From Macrocystis pyrifera (lineage: Eukaryota > Sar > Phaeophyceae > Laminariales > Laminariaceae): a stretch of DNA of 64,000 nucleotides. Location of the stretch: assembly GCA_031763025.1 (NCBI GenBank), contig JASSKH010000003.1, forward strand, positions 1-64,000, read 5' to 3'. A program made the position numbers and the translations under genes. Positions 2,516-64,000 of the stretch are shown here, one piece after another (position 1 is the stretch's first letter; each line of letters begins with the position of its first letter). Under the pieces are notes generated by a model. It made no database searches, was not told the origin of the DNA, and saw nothing but the letters and a program-made list of their open reading frames with translations.

Positions 2516-2970
2516 GTTGTGTGACCACGTTAACCTTCACGACAACCGCCCTTTCTTTATGCGAGTGGGGTTTTCACCGAGCTGCGGGCACCACATTTCT
2601 CAACGACAGCGTGTTGTTGGGGTAAACTTTGTTACATGTACCCGTCTACAACTCCTCATGTTGACGTCTGCAGAAACCTGGGGTACCCCGTCTTTCGCGG
2701 CACGGCTCAAACCGCCAAGTGCATCCATCTTGCATCTAGAGTAGCCGGCCTTCCAGGAGGCGGGGAAGTGGAGGGGAAGGTTACAGAAAGGCTTCAGGAC
2801 ATAAAAAACCCCCTGAAATGTGTCTTTTTGTCTGTAAGTGCGGTGGGTTGTTCCAGCATTTATTTGAATGCCGAAGCGGTCTTACACACGGACATGGTGG
2901 TAAGAACAGCGCACCGGCGGCACCTCACATTACGACTATAGACGGAGTAAACACCTCGTATTGCGCTGCA

Positions 2971-10471: not shown

Positions 10472-10751
10472 CTTCTGCAGATTCGCACACGCAGATCTCA
10501 GTGTCTTTCACGCGGTTCTATCTGGGGAGTGGGCACGCAAGAATTGTCGTGCAGCCTCTCTCGCTGTCCATGCTAATATGAATGCGGCCTAGGTGTCAGC
10601 AGACTCGCACCATCCATGTCTGCGGTGGCGACGTGGAGGGCGTGGCACCTCTCTTTCGAGCGCATCAATAATAGCCGCAGTGAAAACCTCAATCATGCCA
10701 GACGTATTATGGGGCTGGATAAGCTGTTTAGAGTGGAAACGACCCTCGCGA

Positions 10752-28147: not shown

Positions 28148-29652
28148 GTGAGAACCTGCTTCGGCATGCCTAGTTTCGAGGATGTGCCCAGTCATGAAGC
28201 CAGCGTGGAAAGTGAGAAGATTATACAAGAGGTGAGGAAGAAAATAGAGGTCCTGGAAAGGACGATGGAGGAGCAGAGACTGCGCGCCGAGAGGGACGCG
28301 CAGGGAGCAGGAACGGAAGGGGGGGGGGCGATAGGGAGACGAGAGGAGAAGGAATTGCTAGAAGACAACAAGCAACGTCGACTGTGCGGACACCAGGGCT
28401 GGAGGCCCAATCAGGCATGCCATTACCTTCTTTGTACCGCCCAAGTTTGTCCTGGTCGAGACCCCCGAAGTTCGATAAAGTAGAGGCCTACTTTAGCGTG
28501 TGGCGTAGCAAGTTTTTGGCATACCTATCATCGTTTGGGTGCTTGCATGTACTCAGTAGCACAGCGAACCCAGATATGGTAGGCGACATGGGGGTGTCGC
28601 CGGAGGAACTAGCCTCCAGACATTCCCCCCAGGAGATTAGGGACGCGCGATTGGTGTATGGATTGATGATGGAGGCAATGACAGGATACGATATGGCAGA
28701 ATTTAGGATACAGAAGGCAATGTCTCCGAGTGATGCTTGGAAAGAGTTGGAGGACTACTACATGCCTAAGACGATAGCAGCAACACATAGATTGTGGAGA
28801 GAGTTTGATACCATCCGGATGGCTGAGGACGAAAACCCCTTGCTGTTTCTAGGAAGGATGCACAAGGCAGCAGATGAGCTGGCGATGTTGGGATGAGGTA
28901 AGAGTGCAGAGGAAGTGAACCGTCACACAGAGACCAACTTTCCGTCTTTGTATACTATTCAAAGAAAGTTAATTATTTCCCGCCCTTCCATCCCCCGTTC
29001 CGAGATCGATGAGATCATCCGTGACGCGTATGCAAACGACAAGGTAGAGAAGGAGATGGTTTCTAGGGCGTTGGGCGTACAGGGAGTGGTAGATCAGCAT
29101 GCCTTGTACGCCGGAGGTGCGCAGCCTGCCGGTGGCGGAGGTGCGGGTCCAGGAGGGGGAAGGAGGAACAGGAGAGGCGGGAGGTTCAAGGATGGGCAGC
29201 AGCAGCAGCGGCCGTATCAGCAGCAGCAGCAGCAACAGCAGCCCCAGCAGCAGCAGCAGCGGCCACAACAGCAGCAGCATCAAGGGCAGCAGCAGCAGCC
29301 CCAGCAACAGCAGCAACAGCACCGTCCCCATCAGCAACGTAGCAACCGGGGAGGAGCTTCGTCGGGGGGGATAACCGGCCCCGAATGGCGTTTGGATGCC
29401 TTGGCCTGCAGGTACCGTTGGGGTGACTCAGGCCCAGACCCCTTCGGTACGGGTAGAGTAGTGCCCCCCATGGGTTGGGTACCTACCGACCCACCACCAG
29501 GGACTTTGCCGCCGATGCCCCCGCCGCCCGTAGCGACTACGGCAGGCTGGGGTCCCCCATCGAACAACACGCCATGGAGGCGCAAGGGGCCCTGCTTCCG
29601 GTGCGGCAGACCGGGTCATCACGTCGCGGAATGCCAGGTAGCTCCCGCGTAA
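28148..29652 (+). pseudogene. gag-like region of the copia element
   Basis: An N-terminal coiled-coil-like stretch rich in Glu, Lys and Arg is followed by a copia-type capsid segment (SDAWKELEDYYM, TRLWREF-like) and a nucleocapsid with a CX2CX4HX4C zinc knuckle, CFRCGRPGHHVAEC, near 29,597-29,640. A long Gln tract encoded by CAG repeats lies at ~29,195-29,335 between them. Fossil; broken. Confidence 0.85.
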
Positions 29653-29899
29653 ATGAACGTCGCTGTCCCGGGTGCCGCTGCTCCTCAACCCGCCCAACAG
29701 ATATACTACGGAGGTGGCTGGCTGCACGAGACACCCTACGGCAGTGGTAGGTATACCTCGGCCGGAGCTTCCCCGCCACAGCAACCCTCCTTGAGCACTT
29801 CCTCCTCCCCTGGCCAAGCGAACAATGGCAACCCCACGCCTACGTTCGATCCGCACCTCCTTACCGCGCAGTTTGCGCACCAAGGCGAGGCGACTGATG

Positions 29900-31370
29900 A
29901 TTTGTTTTAGGTTAATGGGAGAGAAGAGTGGGTAGCGGATTCGGGAGCAACCTTTCATGTGACTGGTAACCCATTTGGTATGGTAGACTGTACTCCCCCT
30001 CCCCGTGGTACGAGCAGTTTGGTGGTCGGTGACATGAGGTCACGGAAGATAGAGTACTTCGGCCAGTTTCCAATTGTGATGCACAGCTCTCAGGGTGACG
30101 TTCAATTTAGGCTGATGGACGTAGCATACGTACCCGGTGTTCGCTTCAACTTATTTTTGCTTCATGCAGTGATGTTGAAATGCCCGGTGACACATGATGC
30201 TCAGGGAGCTCACACGTTGAATGAGCAAATGTCCTTCGTGCGTAGGGACGCGGGTTCATACGTAGACGCCACGCAGATTGTAGAGACCCCGATTGCTGCC
30301 GCTGTTTCGGCTCCTGGAAAAATGAGGAGGATTGATATTAACGACCTTCACGTTGCCCTTGCCCACTCCCATGCTGACACTCTCCGTGGGACGGCACGCC
30401 AGATGGGTATTAAGGTTTTTGGGGAGTTGGTTCCGTGTGATGGGTGTTCTGAGGCGAAAGGGAGGAGGATGGCGGTGCCGTGGACGACCGAGTGCCATTC
30501 TACCAGGCCTCTGGAGCGTCTGTTCGTGGATCTGTCGTCGGGACAACAGCCTACGCCTGTTGGCGGTGCGCAGTACTTGACGATGATCGTCGACGACTAC
30601 TCGCGACTGGGGTGGCCGTATTTCTTGAAGCGGAAGTCCGACGTCCCGAAGGTCTTCCCTGGTTTCCTGGCCGACATCAACGCAAACGTTGTGCCGTCCA
30701 TCGTGGAGTGCCTTCGCTCGGACAACGGCACCGAGGCGGAGTTCGTGGAGTTGCTCAACAATCACGGCATCCGCCGCGAGTACACGCCCGTCGATTGTCC
30801 GAAGCATGACGGGGTGGTCGAGCGACGGATAGCCATGACGCTGGAGCTTGCAATGGCGTCCCGCCTGGAGGCCACCCGCCTCTTCGGCGATGCAAGGATG
30901 CCGGGGACGCAGCCCCTCTCGGCTGAGTCATGCGTGTACGCGAGCAATGTGATCAACATGTCGGCGAGGGTAAGGGACAAGCCGGAAATTAAATTCTACG
31001 GGAGACCACCGTTTGCGCGATTGCTCCCGTTTCTGAAGCCGGGTTTCCCCCACGTCAGGAGGGCCCTGAAGACCGAGCTGAAGGCGGAGGCTTGCTTCTA
31101 CCTCAACGGCGGCAATCACCACGTGGCGGACTGCAGCAAGATCCTGCTGGTGTCTGGCCGGAGGTCGTTCTCCAGTGACGTCACTTGGGAACACCCGAGG
31201 AAACCGTTTGTGGGGTTACTGCCTTCGGAGGAGGAGAGCTCTCCGCCGCCGCCGTCGCCGTCGCCGCCGCCGCCGGGTGCGCCGGAGCCTCTGAAGGGCC
31301 CGGACGTATGGCCCGAGCCACCGTCCCCATCTTTAGTGCTGCCGCCGCAACCGCCGTCATCACCGCCGCT

Positions 31371-31402
<32 letters not shown>

Positions 31403-33230
31403 CGCCGTCGCCGCCGCCACCGCCGTCATCGTCACCGCCATCGCTACAGCCACCGTCACCGCTGCCGCCGTCACCACCGCTGCTGCCGCCGCTGCCGCCG
31501 TTATAATCGCCGTCGCCGACGCATCAGTCACTGCAGCCACAGCTTTCGCAGCGTGCTGCCCGGGCACTGGGTTATTGTATCCCGACCCGGAGGATGGCGA
31601 TGTGCTGAGGGGGCAGACAAGGGGGGAGACTGCACGACACCAGGAGAGCGGTGGCGCTGTGCAGAGAGGACGGACAAGGGGTGAGATCGCACGACACCAG
31701 GAGGGTGGTGGCGGTGTGCAGGGTGGTCGGGCCAGGGGGGAAGCTGGGTGACACCCCGAAGATGGAGATGTGCTGAAGGGGCGGACAAGAGGTGAGACTG
31801 CGTGGAAACGCGAGGCTATGGGGCATTGGCTGCTGTCGTTGATGGCAGCGTGGGAAGGAATAAACCATGTCCTTTTCCACCAAGCCCCACCGCGCGAGAA
31901 CCCTCCCCTTCCCACACGCCCGGCGAGCGAGCTTTCGACGCCGAACTCGTATGCTGAAGCGTGCGCGCACGAGTATTCGGCCATCTGGAGACAGGCGATG
32001 GACAAGGAGTACCATGGGCTGGCGGACGCGGAGACGTTTGGCGCGACGCAGCAACCAGAGGGGCTCAACGTTATTCCGGCGAAGTGGGTGTTCGCCCGGA
32101 AGTCTAACGAGCATGGTGATGTGGTGCGGGGGAAAGCAAGGCTGGTGGCACGAGGTTTCAAGCATCGCGAGGGTATTGATTTCTTTGAGACTTCTGCTCC
32201 GGCGCCTGCAGCGTCTTGTTTCCGTTTGTTGGGTGCTATTGCGTGCGAGTTGGGTTTGGATCTGTCTCCATTGTAACGGTAGTTCATGTGGATGATATTT
32301 TTGCTGCAGGACTCAAGGCTAGATGCGATCAGTTCTGTGAAGACCTGTACAACCTTGTTCCGATCAACAATCTGGGCGAGTTGCGGTGGTATGCTGGTTG
32401 TTGGTTTTCGAGGGATTGGGATGCTGGTACTTTAACGATTTCGCAGCAGGCGTTCGCTGAAAATACCGCGGCGAGGTTTGTTGTTAGTTCTGGGAGGAAT
32501 AACCCGCTTTCGACTGGTGTGAAGCTCGAGGAGTTTGACGAGAATGAACCCGTGGATGATTGGCCTTTTCGCGAGTTGGTGGGGTGCATGATGTAGCTTG
32601 CGAACCAAACACGACCGGATATTTCGAACGCGGTGAGGGCGATAGCGAGGTACACGAATAGGTCGAGGGAAGTACACTGGAGGACAGCAGTCGGTATTTT
32701 AGAGTATGTATTTTCTACGAGTGATTTCGGCATTACCTTCTAGAAGGGTAGCGGGCCTGAGCTGGTAGTGTTTGCAGATGCAGACTATGCCAACAAAGCC
32801 ACTGACAGGAGGTCAGTTTCCGGTGGGGCTATCATGTGTGCTGGGACGTGTGTGCTGTTTTTCTAGGACGCAGAAATGCGTCACACTCTCAACCACTGAG
32901 GCCGAATATGTAGCACTGGCAGACACTATCAAGGAGGCAATGTGCATGCGCTATGTATGGAGTTTTATTTTTCCGGGGTCTGGGGAGAGGTGCATTACGG
33001 TTTTCGAGGAAAACGAGGGGGCAAGGCACCTGGCACAAAATCCACTCCAGTGTGCACGTAAAAATTCGAAGCACATCGACGTTCGACACCACTTTTTGCG
33101 GGAGCTTATTTTTAAGGGGGAGTTTGTTATTACCCATGTAGAGTCGGAGAAACAGCATGCAGACTTCTTGACAAAGCCGCTCAACAGCACGGTGTTTCGT
33201 TACCACCGGGATTTTCTGATGAATACTTGA
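29900..33230 (+). pseudogene. pol-like region (protease, integrase, RT, RNase H) of the copia element
   Basis: Protease active-site text DSGATFHVTG is near 29,940. The integrase follows with an HH-CC-like segment and the core acidic residues in context (VDDYSRLGW, SDNGTE). A Pro-rich CCG-repeat tract lies at ~31,240-31,500. Reverse transcriptase text (AKWVFARKSNEHGDV, KARLVARGFKHREG) follows, then VDDIF and RNase H (TLSTTEAEYVALAD, KHIDVRHHF). Fossil; broken in several places. Confidence 0.88.
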
Positions 33231-35464: not shown

Positions 35465-35544
35465 ATATCTGAACGTATAATATGATACAATACAAGTTAC
35501 TTGTTTGTTTTCACCCATGGTAAAGACTTCGGGCGCGCTTACGT

Positions 35545-36420
35545 GTGGCGTGCGTTCATACCTCAACATTTCACGGCTGCTCCCAATACTCGGGAGTAGA
35601 GCAAGTATGTTCGAGAAAATACTGCTATTATGTAGGCACTTCGTACTCTCGCAGGATTTCGGGTTTTTGTACTCAAGATACTGCGAGTACTCGCAGTATT
35701 TTGAGGTTCTGTACTACTTCAGATACAGTGCGCATAATTTCGGGCTCGCACTAATGCGGGGTTCGCTACTGCTGCTGTCGTGGATACTCCCTGTTTCGCT
35801 TCAAATATATCGGGGTTCTGTACTGCGGGTACTACGAGTATACCGGTACTATAGTCTAGCAGTATTTCGTCTTTAGGTAGTGTTCGTACTGCTTCTGCGA
35901 GACTCAGTGCTCGCACGACCGAAATACCCTCAATATGCCCAGTATAATTCGTGTATGAAGTATGCTTCAACCGTCAGTGCACCGTGTCGACAATTCTCAG
36001 GCCCTGTGTTCGGCACGAAACACTCCCAGATAGTCGACACACGAGTGGAAGTTGGAGCAAACTACTTTCGCTAGAGACAACTGGAGTACTTGGAGCAGTC
36101 TGGCAGTATTTTGAGGTTTGCATTTGCAAGGAATATCAATGTATGTACTGCGAATACTCTAAGTATCTCGAGGCTCTGTACTACGCATATTGCCTTTACT
36201 CCAAGTATTTCGTGTTTCGATGCTACTGCGGGTACATACTTACCTGTATTGTCGGGTTTTGGTACTGCTCATACTCTCATTACTCTCAGTATGGGCCTTC
36301 TCCGTACTCGCAATATTTTCGCCGCCAGTAGTCCAATACTCGCAGTATTCGGACTACGATTTGTTCTCGGGCATTCATCTGTGAAACCTTGATGTTACCC
36401 TGAGCACCAAGAAACATTTA
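35545..36420. repeat. Degenerate repeat field built on TACTCGCAGTATTTCGGG
   Basis: Words TACTCGCAGTATTT, GGGTTCTGTACTGC and variants recur every ~40-60 bp with heavy decay. A perfect 22 bp palindrome (half-site ATACTGCGAGT) lies at 35,678-35,699. Open frames of 60-126 codons across it are by-products of the repeat. Confidence 0.7.
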
Positions 36421-36514
36421 TTTTGGGGGAATATTTATATTGTACCCGTATGTATGTGCTGTACCTTACTCAGCCGGTCACAAAGTATTATGGCACAACC
36501 TCGACCTCACGCAA

Positions 36515-36640
36515 CTTTTTGGTACTTACGTTTACGCCGCATACCTTGAATCGCCGCAAGTCATCTCGATCAATATATCCATTTACCGATACCCTATTTT
36601 ATGTTATTGTAGTAATGATCCCACACTAATTCTGTAAACA
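36515..36640 (+). repeat. Left half of a split dispersed repeat
   Basis: Matches 61,510-61,618 (ATCGCCGCAAGTCA, GATCAATATAT, TACCCTATTTT, CACTAATTC). The match stops exactly at 36,640; the continuation found at 61,619-61,796 reappears only at 44,656-44,818. Confidence 0.8.
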
Positions 36641-36959
36641 GTACAAGGTTCCCCTTCGGGATGTGGGTGGCATGAAATCCGAGGGGTGTCGCAAGTTGGA
36701 AAGGGAGACGCAGGTGAAAACCCTTGCACCTCTGGTTTGAGTAAAAATGATCTGGGAGAACAAAGAGTCATGGTTGGGTTACAGTAGTACTACTACTGTA
36801 GTATTGCTAAAAGCGAAGAGTAGTAGTAGCCTAGTCTTCCATGCTCTCGCATGTCTTGGCGTATAGGAGGCATGGACAACTGTATTGCTCAAAGAAAAGC
36901 GTAGTACTCAGAAGGAATTGACGAGTTTTGTATCATCCAGGTATTTATCGCCTGGGTGG

Positions 36960-38930
36960 GATCTGTATCATCGATATACGTGTGATCCTTGATGATCTGA
37001 ACACCTACCTCTACCGGGTGGAGGCTGCACGATCTACGTGAACTACACATGTTAATCGAACGTAATATACATGTAACATTATGCACCGTGATTAACTGAT
37101 GAATAGCTTTGCGTGGGTGGGTCTGCATGATCTGAAGGATCTGTACGATGTACAGGATTTTTATGCTGTAGATGTATCACCCGTTTTTTGGCTGTGAGAT
37201 CTGCTTGGTCTTTATGATTGCACTTGCGTGCTGAGTGTGACGATCTGAATGCCATGTGTGCATGATGTGGAGGATCTGTCTGCACGTTATGAAGGATCTA
37301 TTATCTACACACTCCAACTAGTTTGCCTGGGAAGACATGTACGTTCCGTATCATTTGCACTTGTGAGTCAGGTGGGATCTGGTTGATCTCAATGACATGC
37401 ACATATTTAGCCTGAAGGGGATCTGTGTGGTTACAATTTTCATAGATATGTGCCTGAGTAGAATCTGTGTGATCTGTACAATCAGTACATTTCGACCGGG
37501 ATGGGATCTGTCCGACCTGCCTGATCTGTACGTCTTGTGCGAGATAGGGTCTGTACGATCTGCATGGTATGCACATGTTTATCGGTGGGTGTCATTCATC
37601 TGCAGGATCTGTATAATCTGCAGGATCCGTAGGATCTAGCTGAGTGGAATTTGCGTGATCTGTATGATCTGTACTCCGGGATAGGGTGTGTGCGATCTGC
37701 GTGATATACACAATTTTATCGGTGGGTCTGCATGATCTGCAGGATCTGTATGATCTGCGGTATTTCTATATGATCTGGAGGATCCGTAAAATCTGGATAC
37801 TTCTCACTTTTTTTGCAGCATGTTAGGCCGGGATGGGGTCTGTATGAGGTAGATATTTCACAGGTGTGTATCTGAGTGGGATCTGTGTGATCTGGACATA
37901 TTTACTTGGTGGGATCTGTATGATCTGTAGGATCTGTATGATCTAACTGAGTGGAATCTGTGTGAACTGTATGATCTGTACATCTTAACCGGGGTACGGT
38001 CTGTACGATTTGCAGGATCTGTATGACCTGGAGGATTTCTGTATGATCTGGAGATCTATAAAATCTGGATACTTCACACTTGCTTTCAGCATGTTCAGCC
38101 GGGATGGGGTCTGTATGAGGTAGACATTTCACACGTACATGTGTACCTGAGTGGGAACTAGCAGGATTTCTTTATGATTTGAAGGATCCGTAAAATCTGA
38201 ATACTTAACACTTGTTTACATCATGTTTAGCCGAGATGGGGTATGTATGAGGTAAATATTTCACACGTTTGTGCCTGAGTGGGAACTTGATCTGTGTGGT
38301 CTGTACCTATGTGTAATCTGCAGGATCTGTATGATCTACCTGAGTGGAATCTGTGTGATCTGTATATGATCTGTTTATCTTGACCGGGATGGGGTCTGTA
38401 TCATCTGCATCATCTGCATATGTTCTTCGGGTTTGCATGACCTGCAGGAACTGTATGATCTGCAGGATCTGTAATATTTGGCAGGTGTGCACCTGAGGGG
38501 GGTGTTGATGTGTGTGATCTGTACATATTTACCGGGTGGTATCTGTATGATGAGGTAAGTATTTCACACGTGTGTACCTGAGTCGGAACTTGCAGGATTT
38601 CTGTATGATCCGTAGGATTTGTAAATCTTGATACTTTATAATAGTTTGCATCATGTTTGGCTGGGATGGGGTCAGTATGAGGTAGATATTCACACGTGTG
38701 TACGAACCTGAGCGGGAACTTGATCTGTGTGATCTATACATATGTGTGATCTGCAGGATCTGTATGATCTACCTGAGTGGAATATATGTAATCTATATGA
38801 CATGTTCATCTTGACCAGGATAGGGTCTGTACGATCTACATGATTTGCGCATGTTTATCGGTGGGTTTGCATGACCTGCAGGATCTGTAATATTTGGCAG
38901 GTGTTTACCTGAGTGGCATCTGTATCATCT
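36960..38930. repeat. GATC-rich minisatellite with higher-order units
   Basis: The core GATCTGTATGATCTG(C/T)AG recurs over ~2 kb, so GATC occurs several dozen times against about eight expected by chance. Longer units are visible by a marker phrase, GATGGGGTCTGTATGAGGTA, near 37,833, 38,100, 38,235 and 38,661, with a variant near 38,525. Minus-strand frames read as HTDPTDHTD-like peptides because the repeat lacks stops; I do not call them genes. Confidence 0.88.
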
Positions 38931-39013
38931 GCATGAACTGCACATGTTTCGTCGGGAAGATCAAAGAATCAACCCAAACAAATCAAGCAGGAGGACTTCA
39001 GCATAAAGGCACT

Positions 39014-39658
39014 ATGTGGAATACCGTAGGCAGAGGCTGGGGTGGTCCATCTGCCTCCGAACCTTCATCCTCAGTGATCAGTGGCTCAGTGAGTGAACTA
39101 CCTACTCCGGAATATTCAGCTCCTGTACCTGACACCCGAAAGAGTAAGCGGGTGAGTTGTTGTTGTGCTTGCACAGCTGCCGTGCGTATTCAGTTAAGTG
39201 TTGAAGGGTGTTCGAGAATGATAGGGGTCGTGTCTGAGCTTTGACGGCTTCTTATGATACGAACCAGGTGATTTCACGCATCCAGGTGGGCTGTACTTGC
39301 TTTTCAAAGGAGAATTGATCGTGTGTTTTGGGAGACGAGGCAATGGCAAGCATTCTCTCGTGTCGCTTTTTGTTTTTTTTAACAGGGTCGCAGTCGCGTT
39401 ATCGCTGACGATGTGGCGGACACGCTGCTGCACGAGCTCCGCAACAAACTCAAGGTCATCTATGATTCGGACTCATCAACTTCGACGTCCCTCCACAACC
39501 CTGAGAAGACCCCCGAGCACGCACTACATAGGTGGTACCTGGACCACTGCACTTTCATGAGGGTGTTCGGCTGTTCTGGTCTGGAAATGCCCCCCGTCTC
39601 GGAAGTTTCCGAGATGAACGACAAGGTGCTGCCCTGTCAAATACAGTGGCAGTGGTAG
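39014..39658 (+). CDS. Possible two-exon gene of unknown function
   Basis: Exon 1 (39,014-39,151) starts MWNTVGRGWGGPSASEPS and is Ser/Pro-rich; it ends at AAGCGG|GTGAGT. Exon 2 (39,386-39,658) follows a T-rich acceptor ending TTTAACAG and keeps the frame: GRSRVIADDVADTLLHELR then YLDHCTFMRVFGCSGLEM, ending QWQW-stop. The splice signals are good and both exons stay open, giving 137 residues. I recognise no domain. It may be the N-terminal part of a larger element-encoded protein whose next exon is the OTU frame. The Met could lie upstream. Confidence 0.4.
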
Positions 39659-39961
39659 CGTAAGTCGATTTCTAACATTATTTGATTATGGGATGCGTTG
39701 GGACCAAGCTTATGGGAGCTACGTGAGCAATCCAAACAATCCACGATTAATGCTCGATTAATGGGATACATGTGCGAGTCTCTTCGAGAGTCGTCAACAT
39801 CGCACTCAATGACAACGTCTTATTGTTAGTGGGGCAAGGTGCGAGGTACATTATCGTAGCTTAAATGTATGTAAACACCGCGGCGTGTTGGGAATCTTGG
39901 ATACACTCCCGACAAGCAGACATTCCCTTATGGTGCAGTTGTATTGTACCTGTGACACGTC

Positions 39962-40766
39962 GGAACGCGGCACCTGCATGAATGGTTCCCACATTTGCTG
40001 CACGAGCAAAGGTACGACCGTTTCGCGACTTCGATTCTCACGGCGGAGTTGCGCAAGACATGCGTGGCGTATTGGATGGCTGGTGATGGGAACTGCTTCT
40101 GGCGTGCAATTGAGAAGGCACTATGGGGTTCAGACCAGTACTGGCGCCAGGTGAAGCTAGGGGTGTTCGGGTAGACCGAAGTGTACGGTAAAGGTCTGCT
40201 CGACGATGCCGAGGTAAAATACGTCTCGAACGAAGTTTACAGCAGGCACTCAGTTTTTGACGACAAAGGTAACCACCCCGCCGATGCCGGCAGCTACGAC
40301 AAGATGCTCTTGGAATCTATTGAAAAAACCTTGCAAATTTGGGGCATGGGGTGGAGATATTACCGGCCAAATGGTCTCTGAGGCATTCAGAATCGCGGTT
40401 AAGGTGGTGGTCCCGACCGACAGGAAGGCTCGCACGAAGAACGACGTGGAGGGGAAAACTCCACCCCACGGTACGGGAAGGGACGGCTCGAAGATCGAGG
40501 ATTGTCGCCACTCTCGGAGCTTTGAGCCGTACAACTCACATTGTGCATGGCAGTTTCCTGCAATGGATGGCAAGGGTGCTGTCGTTCGCGAGGAGGTCGT
40601 GGTCACCATGACGCCCATCATAGAAGGTAGCCACGCGACCATCCTCGAAGCCGAATTCACCGCGGTCCCTGAGGTAGACCAGAAGTATCACCTACTCTAC
40701 GTCATGCACAACGAGGAACATTTCTTCAAGGAGCTAACTTCGCACAAAGCTAGCATATACGCCTAA
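39962..40766 (+). pseudogene. OTU-type cysteine protease domain, decayed
   Basis: The frame opens HLHEWFPHLLHEQRYDRFAT and reaches the OTU nucleophile motif AGDGNCFWRAI (Asp codon 40,085, Cys codon 40,094-40,096), then QYWRQVKLGVF, and later WGGDITGQMVSEAF, which matches the W-G-G-x-(I/L) strand typical of OTU folds, and NEEHFFKEL at the position of the catalytic His. OTU proteases cleave ubiquitin-like chains and also occur as modules in Mutator-like elements. A TAG at 40,172-40,174 interrupts the frame (a Trp codon would fit), and a frameshift near 40,345 lies just before WGGDI. No start Met is seen; a 5' exon is likely. Confidence 0.75.
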
Positions 40767-41030
40767 GATGTTACTTCAACAACAATGTTTTACCCTACTG
40801 TCGATCATCAGTCGTTTTGGCGCTTGTACGCCCTGATATTTAAAAGGGGCGTCGTTGTTGCCAGTTGCCGCTCCTTGGCCGTCCTCACATGTAGGAATTG
40901 TGCTTCTTTTGGGGATGCCTCGTGCCTGACGTTGCGCAGGAGATGCGCCCCGAGGCGTGCGCGACCTCGGCCTACTCCGCTACAGCCTTGAAATAAGGAG
41001 TTGACGCAGGGAAATTCCTGATGGATTTGA

Positions 41031-41861
41031 CTATCGGGCTGGAGGACGGCCAACCCAGAGACGTGTATATATGACGTGCCAAAGGAAGCCTTTGGCGGCG
41101 ATACAGACGACAAAGTAGTGGATCTCTCCATATTCGGCACGACGTCCTTGCGTTGGTTCGCTAAGCTTGTTGAGGATGTCGAAATTGGCACGGTCGTTAC
41201 GGTGTTGTATATGCAGAAGGATCCACCGGTTGGTCACATTGTTGTTCTCGGGCCTCACAACTTCCAGCTGTGCACGTGTCCGCAGATACTAAGAACTGGG
41301 TTGCCATGTAGCCACGTGCTCATTCAATTAAAGTGCAACAAAGAGTTTAGTGGGGCGTTCCTTCACCCCCTTCGGCGACACAGCTCGGAGGAATGGAGTA
41401 CCGTGAATGCAGGGCTGCGCGTGTTTGACGGGCAAGGTTTGGGACCGTCTCGTGGTGGGTTCGCCGACGATATGCAGGATATTGAGTTTGGGGACGTTCA
41501 GGATGATGTTGCACCCAAAGCTGCACTATCTGTACTTCGTGGGAGGGCCTTCGCGAACTTGAGGGAACAGTGCACAAGGGCTGTCAAGTTGTGTGTAGAT
41601 AATATGCAAGCGGATGATTCGTCTATGCTTAGGCGGAGCCAAGAGATCGTTGAGAGGATGCACAGCGACATGGTCGCCTTGGTGGAGGCGGGTGCTGGCC
41701 CTGCCGATCCACACTACAATGCGGAGAGGGTTTTCGATCCGCCCATTAGGCCTTCGAATAACAGAAAGGAAAGTAGGACTAAGGATTGTTTAGAGTATGG
41801 GTCAAAAAATAAAGGAAATATGCCCCGGGGTAATGTAGCGGGTAGTCTATACCCTTGTTAA
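41031..41861 (+). CDS. SWIM zinc-finger protein, likely transposase C-terminus
   Basis: An open frame of 276 codons with no good start Met. The centre reads GHIVVLGPHNFQLCTCPQIL then RTGLPCSHVLIQLK, a SWIM finger (CxC...CxH), preceded by an SIFGTTSLRWFAKLV segment. SWIM fingers sit at the C-terminus of MuDR/FAR1-type transposases, after the DDE core, and bind DNA or protein. The tail (CLEYGSKNKGNMPRG) is basic. The catalytic core expected upstream is not visible between 40,770 and 41,030, so the gene is either truncated or spliced from exons I cannot identify. Confidence 0.65.
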   Translation, partial: LSGWRTANPETCIYDVPKEAFGGDTDDKVVDLSIFGTTSLRWFAKLVEDVEIGTVVTVLYMQKDPPVGHIVVLGPHNFQLCTCPQILRTGLPCSHVLIQLKCNKEFSGAFLHPLRRHSSEEWSTVNAGLRVFDGQGLGPSRGGFADDMQDIEFGDVQDDVAPKAALSVLRGRAFANLREQCTRAVKLCVDNMQADDSSMLRRSQEIVERMHSDMVALVEAGAGPADPHYNAERVFDPPIRPSNNRKESRTKDCLEYGSKNKGNMPRGNVAGSLYPC

Positions 41862-41879
41862 TATTTCGTGTGCCGTTTC

Positions 41880-42120
41880 TAGGACACCGGCTGCTGGTTG
41901 CATGCGGTTCCCAGCTTTGTAAAGGTCACCTGCCGAAGAGCCAACCAATATATACAAGTTCATGCACGAGAGAGCTTGGAGGACAAACATTTCTATCAAT
42001 CAGTAAGCGGACCGCTCGAGAGTCGCGCTACTGTAGAGGGTGTGCTCTGGGAGTCAATCGTTGTGTTTATCGCGGATGGTGCTCAACTGAAGAACTGCCC
42101 AGAACACGGTAGTATTGGCA
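41880..42120 (+). CDS. Unassigned coding-like frame after the SWIM gene
   Basis: Reads FVKVTCRRANQYIQVHARES then VEGVLWESIVVFIADGAQLK, which has a protein-like composition, and ends at a possible donor CACG|GTAGTA. No family recognised. Could be a further exon of the same element. Confidence 0.3.
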
Positions 42121-42249
42121 ATCCCCGTCCTTTGCTTACATTTTTTTTAATGTTTTCGCGAAGTGCTTTCATCAGTTCATGGGATATTAACTGGGGACAG
42201 TATGGTGCGCGTGCACAGTTATTTTTGTTTCAAGCCGTATTTTGAAAAC

Positions 42250-44655
42250 GTACCAGGCACCAGGTATTTTGTTGGCAACCTCCCTGACATTGGCTCTGGA
42301 GAAAGGTATCATATCTAAAGCCAAGCAGCTGCGGTGTCATAGGAAGTAGTCAAGCCACCTGCGACCCTAGGCCATGCGATGTCAAATTCGTATTCAACTA
42401 ATGCCTAACTCGTAGCGCCGGGGATCGTACGTAGCACCCCGGAACTTGTATGTGCGACACCCGTTGCGGTCGATGCACATGCGGTACAGCACACACCATT
42501 AATAAAAGGGGTTTGCTTTCGTAATTTCAAGCTACAAGGCAGGCTGAGATCTCCCAGAACATTAGAAATATTCTAGGCCGTGGCCCCCCGTTGCAAAATA
42601 AGAAAGGCCCTTTACCGCCACTGGGGCGACGCCCCAACAGCTGCGGTCGCTCTGCTTCTTGTTCCGGCCGTCGATCATACGGTAGCGGTCACACATTCCA
42701 GTTTTATCGGCTTGAGGTTTGCCCGGTGAAAGCAAGAACGAGGTCAATAAGGCAGAAGGTCACCAAAAGGAACAAAAAAATACTCAATCAAGATTCAGCC
42801 TGAACGCTCGGACTCCTTTTTGTTATTCTTAACTATTTTCGAGCCTGAACGCTCGAATTCCGTGTTCTTTGTATTGACCCTTTCGAGCTCATGTATCGCG
42901 ACGAAAAAATGCATGTGTGGTGCTACAGTACCAACAGCCCACTATTAAGAACAGCGTACAGGACTCCAAGTACGTTCATGCTGCGCGCGTGTCGTGGAGC
43001 CCCTTACGCTGGGTGCTCTCGGAGATATCCACTACCCCAAGAACGGACCGCTTCGTGCGTTTTTAAAGCTGTGATCGCCAGTTTTATTCCTCATTTTCCC
43101 TTCAAAGGGTGTTCAGCACAGTATAGGCCCTCGAGTACTACAAATAACCTTTACACTTGAGGATCAATGCCCCAACGGGTAGGGGGAACCGTAACTGGAC
43201 CAAGTCCGGCGGGAAGGCCTTTTAGCCTTGGTTTTGGTTAGTGGGTGAGCTCGCGCAAGTCCCACACTACCCGGGAGAGATGACTCTCCCGGGTGGCTAT
43301 CTCCACCGCACCTGCTCCTCTCGGGGGTCAGATCGAGTCAACGTGCCCGAACTCCAGGGGTAACAGCAGCCTGTTCTGATGTTGCAACGGGAGCTATGGG
43401 TTAAATTTTCACACGACACGAAGTTTGAACGTGGAAGTGCGGCGAGCTCAAGCTTTATTGTTACCAATCCGCCGGAGGATAATATATATATACATAAGAA
43501 CACAACTCTCACTTTTGGTGGGACGACGCGAAAAATGGATTGAAAAATCGTTCTCAGCGGCGAGCGCTACACTAATTCCTCCCTGGTTTATCACATCCTG
43601 TTCGAGGATGGTGTCACGATGAGGCTCTTGCACTCGTACGGTGTGTTTTGACGGGCCCAGGCTGTTCTGCTGTACTATCTAAAACGAACTGCTGTTCTCT
43701 GCGGTGGTGTTACTCGTTGCTTCGTCTATGTTATTGCTGTCTGTGTAGTACTGCTGTATATACGTACGAAGTATCATACAATTTAGTTATACTGTCTGTG
43801 GCAGTAGTACTACTGCTGTGCTACTGTGATGTACTTGTACCTGTCTCCCGCAAAGTGGTACTACTGGTCCAATTACTTCTGCTGCACCACGACTGTTGTA
43901 GTATTGCTGTACTATACGTACTGCTGTACGGAGGCGGGACGGAGGCGGCGGCGGCACGAGCAGCAAGAAGGACGAGCAATACATCATACTCGTACTGGAA
44001 GCTTTGTTTACTGCTGCAGTACCTGTAACCCTGTTGACTTGACACTGCTTCAGGTACCATAATACTACCAATATGAGTATGCTGCTGATGTAAGATACAG
44101 CCCGTACTTTAATACTTTGTGTCCGTCTTGAGAGCTGTGGGGGCTGCAGCAACGGGGTTTGATGGTTCTATGGCGTGATGTACACCACAAGGGACGCAGA
44201 GGGGCTTCGCTGTCGTCACGTGCTGGTCCCTGGGCGCCGTCTGGGGTGCTGGAGAGGACGGATACTACACGCGTTGATCGTGGATGCGGCGGGTTTGATT
44301 TGGAGATAAGCAAGGCCGGAAACCCAGGGACAGAGCTTAAATGTCCCCGTAGTAGTGATTTAAATCTCGACGACGTAGTAGCGACTATCAGTCTCCATTT
44401 TTTGCGAAGATCCGGGTAGGTTTCCAAGCCCCTAGATGGCTTTTCGGAAGTGGGACCCCATCCCCTGAGATGCTTGCTGGGTCACGTGACGTTGACCACG
44501 TAGGGTATGTGCCACGGAGCCCGACCGGAGCCAACGCTTGCACCGTACTGTCCACGCCGCCCCCCTGCGGACCCCGCAGCAGGAAGCACGCGACAAGACC
44601 CGCGGCCAACGAGAAAAGTAAACTTTACCGGACAAAAACGGCCATTTGGTACAAA
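42250..44655. other. Unassigned right part of the 8 kb block
   Basis: Holds a duplicated phrase GCCTGAACGCTCG (42,797 and 42,843), a strong hairpin at 43,269, TAC/TGC-rich low-complexity at 43,640-44,070 and unassigned frames at 44,065-44,427. No gene recognised. Confidence 0.4.
43269..43294. other. Perfect hairpin, 11 bp stem and 4 nt loop
   Basis: ACCCGGGAGAG, loop ATGA, CTCTCCCGGGT. There is no T run after it, so a terminator role is not supported. It lies in a GC-rich 200 bp stretch between AT-rich flanks. Confidence 0.8.
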
Positions 44656-44818
44656 GTAATATAATAATAGTCGGTCTTCAAAAATATGTGTGGGTTCTTC
44701 ACGGTAAAATGATGGGTGGATGCAGGTACTACTTCTAAACAGGTGTGCAGGATTTCATACGAGTATTATTTCGCTCTTGCGCCACTCCCCTAGGCACCTC
44801 CCGGCGGGGAACCTTGTA
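44656..44818 (+). repeat. Right half of the split dispersed repeat
   Basis: Matches 61,619-61,796: GATGGGTGGATGCAGGTACT, TATTTCGCTCTTGCGCCACT, ending CGGGGAACCTTGTA. Confidence 0.88.
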
Positions 44819-45168
44819 GTTAGTATTAATTGTCAGTATTATTAATACGTAGTAGCAGTGTACCAGGTAGTATTTTGTAGAGTGCAGGCCTCTTCTACCT
44901 GTATTACACTTATCTGCGTAGTAGTGGTATCGTGGTGTATAGCAATAGTATAATAATAGCCAACCCATGGTACCGCGTGCATGTAGTGTAGTAATTACCA
45001 CAGAAAGAGTAGTACTCAGTTCCTGCTGACTACTATTAATATTACTCGTGAGTTTCGGGGGGGAAAAAAAAGCGCTCAGGGTCAGGGTATGTCGAAGTAT
45101 CGCCGCATCAAATACGTTGACGGCTATTTTTTCCCCTGAGCGGACTCTTTTTTTCTAGATGCTCAGGG
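44819..45168. other. Short spacer, no gene
   Basis: AT-rich, with TACCAGGTA at 44,861. Confidence 0.4.
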
Positions 45169-46102: not shown

Positions 46103-46178
46103 TGGTGTTCAATCCGAGAATCGAACTCGGGTTTCCACAGCCACTATGTGGTGTACTGACCACTATACTAATTAGACC
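46103..46178 (-). other. tRNA-His(GTG)-like sequence / extended primer-binding site
   Basis: On the minus strand a tRNA cloverleaf folds: acceptor GTCTAAT/ATTGAAC (one C-A mismatch), D-arm TAGTATAGTGG, anticodon stem CCACA/TGTGG with loop TAGTGGC (GTG at positions 34-36, but A instead of U at 33), T-arm CCGAG/CTCGG, discriminator A and an encoded CCA. A G precedes position 1, as in mature tRNA-His. Because the CCA abuts the LTR end, this is best read as an LTR-element primer site that spans the complement of the entire tRNA rather than the usual ~18 nt. A tRNA pseudogene is the alternative. Confidence 0.7.
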
Positions 46179-55384: not shown

Positions 55385-55620
55385 TGACCGTGTACTAGGA
55401 TAACCCATATCTCCGCGAGTACTGGCCCGTTTTGGCTACACGATAGCTTCAATGGTAGTCCTACACCATGCGAGACTCTAATGGTAGTGCGTTGCCGACC
55501 CGGAGCGTGTGCGACAACTACAACGCGGCGTCGCAAATACGATATTTGCGACACGCGTGTCGCAAATAAGGCTTATTTGCGACACCAGCCAGAAGATTCC
55601 GCGGGTTGTACCAGGATACC

Positions 55621-55938
55621 CGGTGGCTTGGTAGGTGGTCCGCGTGCCTGTCAAGATCAATTTCGTGGGTTCAAAGTCTCACCGAGTGCATGCTCATAGG
55701 GACTTTTTCTTGCATAAAAAACTGATAAGCGGAAAGCGCGAAAGCGTGAGTTGGCTACATTCGATGAAAATCGATGAGCAGTGGGAATGCTGAACCCTAT
55801 GCGCGACAAAAAATAAAGGCACGTACCGGGGGGGAGAAGGGACGACACCTGTGACCACGGCTTGTCCAGAAGATCGTCGAGGGTAAAACCTCCTACGAGT
55901 GGGCTGGAAAGTAAAAGTGATGAAGAAAAAAGAAAAAA
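55621..55938 (+). mobile_element. tRNA-derived SINE, copy A
   Basis: The head carries an A box, TGGCTTGGTAGG (55,624-55,635), and 45 nt on a B box, GTTCAAAGTC (one base longer than canonical), so it is an RNA polymerase III promoter. The body runs GTGCATGCTCATAGGGAC, TCGATGAGCAGTGGGAATGC, GACGACACCTG, CCAGAAGATCGTCGAGGG and CGAGTGGGCTGGAAAG, then an A-rich tail. It interrupts a foldback-element unit that is uninterrupted at 56,140-56,175. Confidence 0.85.
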
Positions 55939-58975: not shown

Positions 58976-59303
58976 TCGATATATTCGTCGACTCGAGTAC
59001 AACAAAAACAAATCGTTCGTACTACTGTAAAACACTGCTGTACAACAATTAGCACAGCAGCGTTCGTACAAAAAGTGCTTTACAGCAGTAGTTCTGATTG
59101 CTGTGTGTCCTACACACTGCTGACCGATAGATCCTAGAGCCGGCTGAAAGGGGATAAGTACACGTACGTTCCTCACGTGGCATTTTACATCAGTACTGCT
59201 CTATACGCAGTCGTACCTGTACAACCTACTCTAGCAGGACTAACTGGTTGTAGGAGATCGTGCAATGTGTTTCAGATTGCGGAAAAAACACGACGTGCGA
59301 GTT
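58976..59303 (+). repeat. Left part of the repeat split by SINE copy B
   Basis: Matches 23,966-24,265; the continuation is at 59,628-59,695, after the SINE. Confidence 0.83.
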
Positions 59304-59619
59304 GTTTTTTTCATCATCACTTTTACTTTCCAGCCCACTCGTAGGAGGTTTTACCCTCGACGATCTTCTGGACAAGCCGTGGTCGCAGGTGTCGTCCCTT
59401 CTCCCCCCCCCGGTACGTGCCTTCAGTTTTTATCGCGCATAGGGTTCAGCATTCCCACTGCTCGTCGATTTTCATCGAATGTACAGCTAACTCACTCTCT
59501 CGCGCTTTCCGCTAATCAATTTTATGCAAGAAAAAGTCCCTACGAGCATGCACTCGGTGAGACTCGAACTCACGAAATTGATCTTGATAGGCTCGCGGAC
59601 CACCTACCAAGCCACCGGG
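59304..59619 (-). mobile_element. tRNA-derived SINE, copy B
   Basis: Minus-strand copy, head at ~59,619 and T-rich (tail) end at 59,304. B box GTTCGAGTC and T-stem GTGAG/CTCAC are perfect; the A box reads TGGCTTGGTAGG. This is the best-preserved promoter of the four copies. Confidence 0.88.
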
Positions 59620-59706
59620 GTGTAACTAGTACGAGCATACTGCGCTCGATAAAATTTTCGTTTCCGAGGTTCGACTCGCACCATCCACGCTTTTTTGTTT
59701 CAGTAC

Positions 59707-60021
59707 TTTTTTTTTTTTTTTTCATCACTTTTACTTTCCAGCCCACTCGTAGGAAGTTTTTACCCTCGACGATCTTCTGGACAAGCCGTGGTCACAGGTG
59801 TCGTCCCTTCTTCCCCCCGGTACGTGCCTTCATTTTTATCGCGCATAGGGTTCAGCATTTCCACTGCTCGTCGATTTTCATCGAATGTAGCTAACTGACG
59901 CTCTCGCGCTTTCCGCTTATCAATTTTTTATGCAAGAAAAAGTCCCTACGAGCATGCACTCGGTGAGATTTGAACCCACGAAATTGATCTTGATAGGCAC
60001 GCGGGCCACCAAGCCACCGGT
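59707..60021 (-). mobile_element. tRNA-derived SINE, copy C
   Basis: Minus strand, same orientation as copy B and 90 bp from it. The A-box region lacks a few bases relative to copies A and B. Tail is a T16 run on +. Confidence 0.87.
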
Positions 60022-60072
60022 GACGCCAGCAGAGTACTACAACTTAACAGCAGTACATTCATTATTATTCAT

Positions 60073-61221
60073 TAGAGTGTCTGCGCAAAAGAAATAATAT
60101 TACGAATTTTGCTTATCTATTCCCCCGTTACCGACGACTAATCAAATATCCTAATCAAATTTGCATAAAAATGACGAAGTTATGCATTTTTGGATAGCAT
60201 ATTATACTAGAGCCATATTTGTATGATATGAGATTCGACCGCTGCATTCTGTTGGCCGAAAACTCTCCGGGCGCTTTGGATTGGCCAAGCTTGCCCCGAG
60301 AGTGGCCTCGGACCCTCGGACCATGTGTCTGCTACCGGCGGAGTTTTGCGAGAAGAATTGCTGCCGCTGATGCTGCGTGCCTTTGCTGCCTGCTGCTGCA
60401 GCAGCAGATACTATTAGGTAGGTGCTGCTGCTGCTGCTGCTGCTGCTGCTGTACGTCACCGACTACTGCTGCTACTACTGCATATAGTGTGCTGCTGCTG
60501 CTGCTGCTGCAAGTGCTGTTGTTGCTGGAAACACAGCGGCAATAAGCAAGCACTGCGGTGAGCAGGCGCTGCTGCAAACAAAAGCGCTGCTGCAAGCGAG
60601 TGCTGCTGCACACAAGCAAGGTCTGCTGCAAGCAAGCGCTGCTGCAAGCGAGCGCTGCTGCACACAAGCAAGGTCTGCTGCAAGCAAGCGCTGCTGCGAG
60701 CAAGCGCTGCTGGAAGCGAGAGATCTGCCTTAAGCAAGCGCTGCTGCGAGCAAGCAAAAGCGCTGCTGCAAGAGCTGTCGCAGGCGCTGCTGGTGCTGCA
60801 AGCACGTGCACCCTTGCCGCCACGCCCCTGATCTTCGACCCCTTTTCGGCCAGAGAGGACGACGAAGAAGGAGGGCGATCTTCTCGTTGTGGCGGCGTTG
60901 CTTGCACAGCGAGTGTCGAGGAGCGCAAGATAGATCGCACTTCTGCCTGTTAGTGCTTGCTGCTGCTTACTGCTCCCGCAGCTGCTGCTGCTGCTGCTGC
61001 TGCAGGTGGGTACTGCTGCTGCTTGCACCACTTCTTGTGTTCGGCTCGTTTGGTACAAAAAAAAGTGCTGCCGCTGCCGCAAGTGTTTTTTTTCAAACAT
61101 AAGAATCCAATATTTAGCTGTTTTTCGTCTACGATTATGCGCATGCCGAAAGGCTTTCGATTATGATTACCTTTCCGACGGAAATCCTTGATAAACAAAA
61201 ATATTATGCGCAGACACTCTA
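60073..61221. mobile_element. TIR element flanked by TA, filled with CTG repeats
   Basis: Perfect 15 bp inverted ends TAGAGTGTCTGCGCA (60,073-60,087) and its complement (61,207-61,221). If the outer TA is the target duplication, the ends resemble Tc1/mariner-style insertion, but no transposase is present, so a non-autonomous element is the likely reading. A second left end lies at 53,475. Confidence 0.65.
60420..61010. repeat. CTG tracts and GCAAGCGCTGCT minisatellite
   Basis: A near-pure (CTG)10 run lies at 60,421-60,452, others at ~60,490 and ~60,975. Between 60,545 and 60,790 a 13-17 bp unit (GCTGCTGCAAGCGAG / CACACAAGCAAGGT) repeats, with a two-fold larger duplication. The Gln/Leu/Ala-rich frames across it are by-products. 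Confidence 0.88.
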
Positions 61222-61509
61222 TTATTTTTATTATGCTTGCCTTCCGACAATATAGCGCAGATGCCGTTCCTATATAAACCAAACATACAATCCTTCCTTA
61301 AATCAGTAGTATCCCTCATACATACTCTTCTCTGCCAGCCGTTTCCCAATTTCCATTCCCCACATCATTTCAGTTTAGCTACCGGCATTCATCCCCACCT
61401 TGCTTTTCTGAACGTTTAGTATTATATAATACAAGTTGTGAGAGTTGTGTTTTCCACTTGTGACTTTTTCCGTACTAGTACGTTCATCCACCTTGCTTTT
61501 CTGAACGAT
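61222..61509. other. Spacer with CTTGCTTTTCTGAACG repeat
   Basis: 61,385-61,520 matches 24,400-24,535. Confidence 0.6.
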
Positions 61510-61796
61510 TAACTTTTTTGTTACTTACGAATTAATCGCCGCAAGTCAGCTGGATCAATATATATCCACTTCCCGCTACCCTATTTTGTGTTATTGATTC
61601 CGCACTAATTCCGTGAACATTATTATATTAGTCTGTCCTCAAAATAAATATGTTGTGTGTGTTCTTCACGTTTAAATGATGGGTGGATGCAGGTACTACT
61701 TCTACACAAACAAGTGTGCAGGGTTGGATACGAATACTATTTCGCTCTTGCGCCACTCCCCTACTAATACGGCACCTCCCGGAGGGGAACCTTGTA
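61510..61796 (+). repeat. Uninterrupted copy of the repeat split at 36,640/44,656
   Basis: Collinear with 36,515-36,640 followed directly by 44,656-44,818; the junction lies at about 61,618. Confidence 0.83.
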
Positions 61797-61955
61797 TGTA
61801 GTAGTACTTCGAGTTTAGTCTCTTTGTCGCTGTATCTTGCCCTTCGTGTATTCTTTTTGTGTTCTGGGTTGGCGGGGACGGTTAGGGGCGAAATCCCGGG
61901 CTTTCCATTGCTTGGATGTTTGGGTTATGGTTCTCTTTTACAACCCATGATACCT

Positions 61956-63387: not shown

Positions 63388-63713
63388 GGTATGTTGTATG
63401 TTGTGTTGTATGTTGTGTTGTTGTTGTGTTGTTGTTGTGTTGTTGTGTTGTTGTGTTGTTGTGTTGTGTTTGTTGTTGTTGTTGTTGTTGGTGTTGGTGT
63501 TGTTGTTGGTGTTGTTGTTGTTGTTGTTGGTGTTGGTGTTGTTGTTGGTGTTGTTGTTGGTGTTGTTGTTGTTGTTGTTGTTGTTGTTGGTGTTGGTGTT
63601 GTTGTTAGGGTTAGGGTTAGGGTTAGGGTTAGGGCTAGGGTTAGGGTTAGGTTGCCGTTGTTGTTGTTGTTGTTAGGGTTAGGTTGTTGTTGTTGTTGTT
63701 GTTGGTGTTGTTT
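63388..63713. repeat. (GTT)n tract containing TTAGGG arrays
   Basis: Mostly GTT and GTTGGT repeats. It encloses eight telomeric units at 63,605-63,651 (one CTAGGG variant, last unit one base short) and nearly two more at 63,673-63,683. G-rich strand is on +. The tract runs into the (AAC)-tail side of the inverted LINE end. Confidence 0.9.
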
Positions 63714-63828: not shown

Positions 63829-64000
63829 TTTTTTTTTTTGTTTTTCTCCATCACTTTCACTTTCCAGCCCACTCGTAGGTTTTACCCTTGACGATCTTCT
63901 GTACACGGGTCACAGGTGTCGTCCCTTCTCCCTCCCGGTACGTGCCTTTACTTTTCGTCGCGCATAGGGTTCAGCATTCCCACTGCTCGTCGATTTTCAT
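63829..64000 (-). mobile_element. tRNA-derived SINE, copy D (cut by the window edge)
   Basis: Tail and 3' body of the SINE on the minus strand (TTTCCAGCCCACTCGTAGG, GTGTCGTCCCTTCTCC, CATAGGGTTCAGCATTCCCA). The tRNA-like head lies beyond 64,000. Confidence 0.85.

Follow-up and report, generated by a model that had tools for sequence, protein, structure and literature searches.

What kind of mobile element carries an OTU cysteine protease region and a SWIM zinc finger together with no DDE transposase core? The question is raised by an 8 kb insertion in the kelp Macrocystis pyrifera, located in the first 64,000 nucleotides of contig C211 (JASSKH010000003.1, assembly GCA_031763025.1); we refer to this whole stretch as the window. 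A sequence-only reading had proposed that a split repeat encloses either a single insertion or a nest of insertions, and that OTU plus SWIM points to a Mutator-like element (MULE), perhaps a derivative. Genome searches (537,376,219 bases in 223 contigs) decide for the nest and support the Mutator assignment, both through relatives in the same genome that have a DDE core and through the terminal inverted repeats (TIRs) of a sibling copy, L070. Very probably, the insert is a nest of at least three elements: an OTU–SWIM MULE without DDE lies in a middle element, X, which lies in an outer repeat, R, and this MULE belongs to a family that combines OTU, DDE and SWIM (Table 1).

A nest of elements within a split repeat

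Self-comparison of the window aligned both halves of R with a second copy: positions 61534–61596 match 36549–36609 (87%) and positions 61621–61803 match 44660–44825 (82.5%, E = 9e-37). This second copy (61210–61796) lacks approximately 1.1 kb of R, yet is unbroken across the insertion point. A genome search with the right half of R listed 40 places, its own included, from 1774 first-look candidates, and 29 other copies were fetched; several resemble duplicates (L057, L058, L063 and L065 lie on one contig), so that not all are independent. In 28 of the 29 the two halves adjoin without interruption, from which it follows that they were once adjacent; the sole exception (L053) matches for a few bases at the junction and loses similarity beyond them. 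The view of a split repeat with a continuous copy elsewhere in the window was therefore right, and the contrary outcome, halves never adjacent elsewhere, did not occur. The insertion site had also been placed correctly, with its boundaries now moved by 1–4 bases from 36641 and 44655 to 36642 and 44659. The two halves had been recognized, although R is much longer than was stated (35468–36641 on the left); other copies reach further left, and comparison of the fetched copies did not locate its left end.

X is a high-copy element of approximately 3.7 kb. A search with the initial 259 bases of the insert listed 40 matches, 39 of them at other places (87–90%), and positions 44391–44664 match 39 other places at 90–93% among the matches listed, starting 12–17 bases in. 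Paired on one strand, head and tail were found at four places (L086–L089), separated by 3.66–3.85 kb; these full copies, which were fetched, align to the window over 36642–38988 and 44403/44405–44663, and contain no match to the OTU/SWIM stretch. X heads start with ACAAGG in 14 of the 15 fetched (ACAAGA in L072; L071, L073 and L074 are duplicates with one common flank), and the preceding base is T in 13 and C in two (L072 and L084). The right end is GTAA beside TATA in all six cases seen (window, L043 and L086–L089). No TIR was seen in L086, and the site of X in R is compatible with a TA target duplication or with none. L043 carries a short relative of X (head to tail approximately 0.8 kb) that adjoins a copy of R. 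The GATC-rich minisatellite is inside the insert, as had been noted, but belongs to X and not to the Mutator element (it aligns in L086–L089). As a separate observation, an end of X pairs with an end of R in a 24 nt inverted repeat (36642–36665 with 44795–44818). The two high-copy repeats have one terminal sequence in common (TACAAGGTTCCCC), in which a small CCC/GGG stem is possible.

At the right junction, the long TIR of the MULE ends in CAGTCTCC and is followed by ATTTTTTGCG and then X, whereas uninterrupted copies of X read AAAAATGCG or similar at that place. This step, seen against L086–L089, therefore puts the MULE inside X. The window is 92% identical to L070 over 39346–42991 and 86% over 43868–44390; L070 lacks a larger stretch (42992–43867) around the small insertion listed in Table 1. 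The TIRs of L070 are approximately 265 bp long (179 nt at 93% plus 57 nt at 88%), and the window keeps only the right one. The earlier statement that long TIRs are missing thus holds for the left TIR, which is lost, and not for the right, present at approximately 44115–44396, which matches the TIRs of L070. On the left, positions 38989–39007 lie between the end of X (38988) and the first match to C216 (39008), a sister copy described below; X copies carry approximately 1 kb more before their tail, and L070 has a left TIR plus approximately 1.3 kb more. A single deletion over the left X/MULE boundary would be the simplest account of the lost left end.

Table 1 Features of the nested insertion and of its unoccupied site in the window
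Feature	Position	Strand	Basis
Outer repeat R, left part, truncated at left in the window copy	35468..36641	+	86% to L040 over ~1.2 kb, and others; end is the point at which other copies pass on to the right part without a break
Middle element X, left part, start TACAAGGTTCCCC	36642..38988	+	84–91% in pieces to full 3.7 kb copies L086–L089
GATC-rich minisatellite stretch of X	37598..38473	.	Tandem Repeats Finder (TRF); aligns inside L086–L089 in numerous repeated partial matches
Mutator-like element, left end lost, without DDE, frameshifted	38989..44396 (~)	+	86.6% to C216 over 39008–40266; 86.5% over 40699–42727; L070 match
OTU-like cysteine protease region, three overlapping frames (39956–40171, 40175–40378, 40218–40763)	39956..40763	+	PF02338 17.3 bits (Cys piece); 35–46% to C139 OTU frame; conserved in L070, L011, L017
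SWIM zinc-finger frame, 276 aa; CxCx9CxH CTCPQILRTGLPCSH at 41271–41315	41031..41858	+	PF04434 13.9 bits; 142 genome-wide match rows
Small insertion, ~340 bp, in 3' part of Mutator element, partly common to L011	43154..43493	.	Absent at same place in L013, L019, L021, L022; part matches L060 flank
Right long TIR of Mutator element, end CAGTCTCC	44115..44396 (~)	+	Matches both L070 TIRs up to 44390: left 87% (inverted), right 86%
Middle element X, right part, end GGTACAAAGTAA beside TATA; first few bases may be target duplication	44397..44659	+	91–93% to L086–L089 tails from 44403/44405
Outer repeat R, right part, end GGGGAACCTTGTA	44660..44818	+	89–95% to 29 other copies
Unoccupied site, second R copy, internally deleted (61210–61507 and 61529–61796)	61529..61796	+	Window self-comparison

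OTU, DDE and SWIM in relatives from the same genome

The OTU region of the window copy has a Cys motif (AGDGNCFW, 40079–40102) and, by eye, a putative His at NEEHFF (40710–40727). Homologous OTU regions score above the PF02338 cut-off in C190 (L070; 29.1 bits, read through stops) and in the C139 frame (23.7 bits). Among solved structures, the C139 frame matches chain 6dx5_B best (E = 0.0013); this chain, whose entry is named RNA-dependent RNA polymerase, we take to be a viral OTU domain. The DDE core had been reported missing, and no DDE piece matched the insert better than chance: five DDE pieces were tested, three from C216 and two from C203 that match C216 independently (D2 region 56%, E region 44%), and the best gave E = 0.54. 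Because this core is absent, the window copy is a MULE derivative and not a complete MULE. A possible two-exon gene that had also been suggested was not identified in the insert.

Relatives elsewhere in the genome do carry the core. The MULE DDE domain (PF10551) lies 1.4–2.3 kb upstream of SWIM in many copies. Identity between the sister copy C216 and the window is 86.6% before a gap and 86.5% after it; the DDE of C216 scores 33.0 bits for PF10551 (cut-off 27.6), and direct reading gives the order first half of OTU, inverted duplication, D, D, E and SWIM. The C139 copy (L093; 1386476–1399028, 12.55 kb), from a more distant lineage, has GTTCACGAGG on both sides and encodes a 321 aa OTU frame followed by an Ala/Glu-rich frame of 363 aa. 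This Ala/Glu/Lys-rich frame (L093 reverse complement 2681–3769) stands between OTU and DDE, has no Pfam match and may be a linker or coiled coil. OTU, DDE and SWIM thus occur in one unit in C216 (half of OTU, read) and in C139 (partly read, the stretches outside direct reading being 1386635–1391699 and 1398601–1398907); OTU and SWIM did not turn out to come from unrelated loci, as both accompany DDE in these two copies.

The C139 lineage has two abundant deletion forms and TIRs of 50–85 bp. As far as compared, the C203-type copy is C139 minus approximately 4.8 kb, and the L069-type copy is apparently C139 minus a different stretch (the second half of OTU and the first D); in L069 the first 50 bases of the TIRs are nearly perfect, and the match extends to approximately 85 bp with gaps. 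Target duplications of 9–10 bp were found in all five complete end pairs of this lineage: C203 (ATATTTGAGC), C139 (as above), C194 (CTATTTTTA), C138 (CACGACAAA) and C189 (AACCCGCTG). Seven places were tried; the left ends of C223 and C207 were missed by the position estimate. C189 holds a tandem pair of Mutator elements in which the 9 bp AACCCGCTG flanks both outer ends and also separates the two (L069:3543–3718, L090:682–776, L106); the junction is a near-perfect palindrome.

We took a census of the family around SWIM, pairing each SWIM locus with OTU within 16 kb and DDE within 6 kb upstream on the same strand. The rows carried were 114 of 142 for SWIM (28 were dropped as second fragments or weak), 66 of 77 for OTU, 49 of 52 for the first D and 94 of 94 for PF10551; only the best candidates were scored, and all counts are lower bounds. 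At least 47 of the 114 SWIM loci combine OTU with a PF10551 row but lack the first catalytic D, and at least 36 have the first D without OTU (29 with a PF10551 row, 7 without). OTU and the first D occur together in at least five (C216, C202, C139, C219 and C200, the last doubtful at 14 kb). OTU alone accompanies SWIM in at least four, PF10551 alone in one, and 21 have none of these. Tens of copies are up to 99–100% alike over the query protein stretches. The four loci with OTU and no DDE (window, C190, C214 and C195) share one OTU-to-SWIM join: the spacing is 1011–1027 bp in all four, and the join in the window is 94%, 92% and 91% identical to those of the other three. The OTU–SWIM form therefore spread after loss of DDE. 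All four copies are broken, by frame changes in the window and by stops or frame changes in the others.

Alternative readings and the history of the copy

Could the locus instead be one element of 8.18 kb, with ends at TACAAGGTTCCCC (36642) and GGGGAACCTTGTA (44818) and OTU and SWIM among its native genes? Exactly these two ends are paired by the inverted repeat of 24 nt noted above, which is 88% complementary. The 44818 end, however, is part of R, which is uninterrupted in 28 other copies, and the 36642 end is part of X, which measures 3.7 kb without OTU or SWIM in L086–L089. The ends match because R and X have an end sequence in common; the arms belong to two different elements, a single element bounded by them is rejected, and we regard this account as highly improbable. 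We give just as little credence to a Pack-MULE, in which OTU and SWIM would be host gene fragments captured between Mutator TIRs. An absent DDE core and the long TIRs of L070 would fit such an origin, but other lineages of this family (C216, C139 and L069) have OTU alongside DDE and SWIM, and OTU and SWIM are for this reason the element's own parts. Two other OTU-bearing transposon classes were rejected. For Helitron/Helentron, L001 has no match in the insert at E 1e-8, and the sibling has long TIRs. For Ginger1, the relatives' DDE matches PF10551, and the DDE pieces matched no integrase family at E up to 1 (YPYY and GPY/F were not searched). L001–L008 themselves have long, almost identical frames in which helicase-like and OTU regions are recognizable (by eye for six of the eight; OTU above the Pfam cut-off in all eight). 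They are likely Helitron/Helentron elements with OTU and were set aside as relatives of the insert, given these Helitron-like frames and the lack of a DNA match from L001.

Two further readings give the DDE-less form a function. In one, it would be an accessory module, kept by selection, whose OTU–SWIM protein aids DDE-bearing copies in trans; the single join common to four copies and an OTU that is whole in outline (Cys motif and putative His region) are compatible with this, but all four copies are frameshifted or have stops, and spread requires only TIRs and a transposase from elsewhere, which makes such a module improbable. In the other, a kelp MULE lineage of approximately 12.5 kb, with a deubiquitinase-like OTU protein as an original functional component beside DDE and SWIM, would have split into complementary deletion forms whose OTU and transposase could act in trans as a multi-part system. 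The forms that prompt this idea are the 36 or more DDE–SWIM loci without OTU, the 47 or more with OTU and a DDE half that lacks the first D, and the old OTU–SWIM form without DDE. Separate functional parts are made less credible by L069, the one copy of the OTU form that was read, which loses the second half of OTU, and we consider a multi-part system rather unlikely.

Several observations weigh against assigning the window copy to an OTU–DDE–SWIM family of MULEs. The motifs anticipated in the OTU and SWIM frames are in place (40079–40102 and 41271–41315), but both regions score below their Pfam cut-offs (OTU, 17.3 against 23.3 bits; SWIM, 13.9 against 19.6 bits), and OTU is spread over three frames; the genome-wide OTU search, with 16 rows, does not list it, and the SWIM of L069 (17.0 bits) is also under its cut-off. 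The OTU of C216 is incomplete, with the first half followed directly by the inverted duplication, and the gap between the two copies holds 2.7 kb with DDE in C216 and, in the window, 432 bp of OTU that C216 lacks, so that this comparison gives no size for the window's own deletion. The left TIR of C216 was not found in 1.3 kb of added flank, and its TIRs were not located. In C139, approximately 5 kb with DDE and SWIM were placed by search hits and not read, and no single copy read from one end to the other retains OTU, DDE and SWIM intact. No clear target duplication flanks L070, and the window element has lost the left TIR beside which its own would lie.

The nest of MULE in X in R can nevertheless be ordered in time. 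X inserted into R, and a MULE of the OTU–DDE–SWIM family, its DDE core already lost, then inserted into X. A deletion over the left X/MULE boundary presumably took approximately 1 kb of X, the left TIR and adjoining sequence (approximately 1.3 kb in L070), and frame changes accumulated, presumably afterwards, leaving a copy that is now dead. Before this decay, the window copy and its three siblings were probably moved in trans by the transposase of DDE-bearing relatives acting on their long TIRs. Intact relatives would be expected to use DDE cut-and-paste transposition with 9–10 bp target duplications; SWIM probably binds DNA or a partner protein, and OTU probably deubiquitinates the transposase or host repair factors. 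The window copy is thus a non-autonomous Mutator derivative; in itself it is an unremarkable dead relic, useful because it pointed to the family.

Other features of the window are listed here for completeness. A repeat of approximately 320 bp occurs at 55619–55938, 59302–59620, 59707–60039 and 63829–64000, and again after the Helitron-like frame of L001; a shorter segment of it matches the 3' part of the DDE–SWIM Mutator form. By eye, frames at 28897–31506 resemble a Copia-type gag (zinc knuckle) and integrase polyprotein, and a frame at 9554–10507 (−) resembles a non-LTR (long terminal repeat) reverse transcriptase. A tRNA gene lies at 46106–46177 (−; Rfam, 51.2 bits), and a telomere-like array of eight GTTAGG units lies at 63604–63651, approximately 63.6 kb from the contig start.

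Comparison with known systems

In this brown-algal family, an OTU protease is associated with a Mutator transposase and SWIM. OTU, DDE and SWIM together are an uncommon variant of MULE architecture, unreported so far as the literature searched extends: no report of all three in one MULE was found there, and the part of PMC11069148 available gave nothing on it. With near-identical copies, clear ends and target duplications, the family is tractable and could serve to ask whether transposons use deubiquitination to move. OTU or Ulp1 proteases have been suggested to participate in transposition or repair (PMC2836005, in the part consulted, which for Mutator names Ulp1 and not OTU). The Ginger1 elements described there are likewise cut-and-paste transposons with a fused protease (OTU or Ulp1), but their DDE is Gypsy-integrase-like and OTU is C-terminal, whereas the kelp family has a MULE DDE with OTU upstream. 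Helitron/Helentron elements with OTU also place this protease in a transposon, and differ in their rolling-circle helicase and in having no DDE or SWIM, as far as the sections of PMC6431247 consulted describe them. In the brown alga Ectocarpus, giant DNA transposons resemble the kelp family in their size (>10 kb), extra genes, nested insertions and pseudogenized transposases that are thought to be trans-mobilized; one MuDR family is listed, and OTU and SWIM are not mentioned in the main text of that survey (PMC12477816). Within MULEs, Table 1 of PMC6446971 gives OTU ('Ovarian Tumour Gene') only for MuDR-6_HM of Hydra, which is like the kelp family in having OTU within a MULE and unlike it in being cnidarian, with no zinc finger or TIR listed. 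The same table includes the stramenopile MULE-Diatoms, with SWIM, TIRs of 123–124 bp and no OTU. These share a MULE DDE, SWIM and TIRs with the kelp family, which in contrast has OTU upstream of DDE, and whose window copy is without DDE. SWIM is common, though not universal, among MULEs, whose target duplications measure 9–11 bp; the 9–10 bp duplications of the C139 lineage agree with those of many MULE groups in that table.

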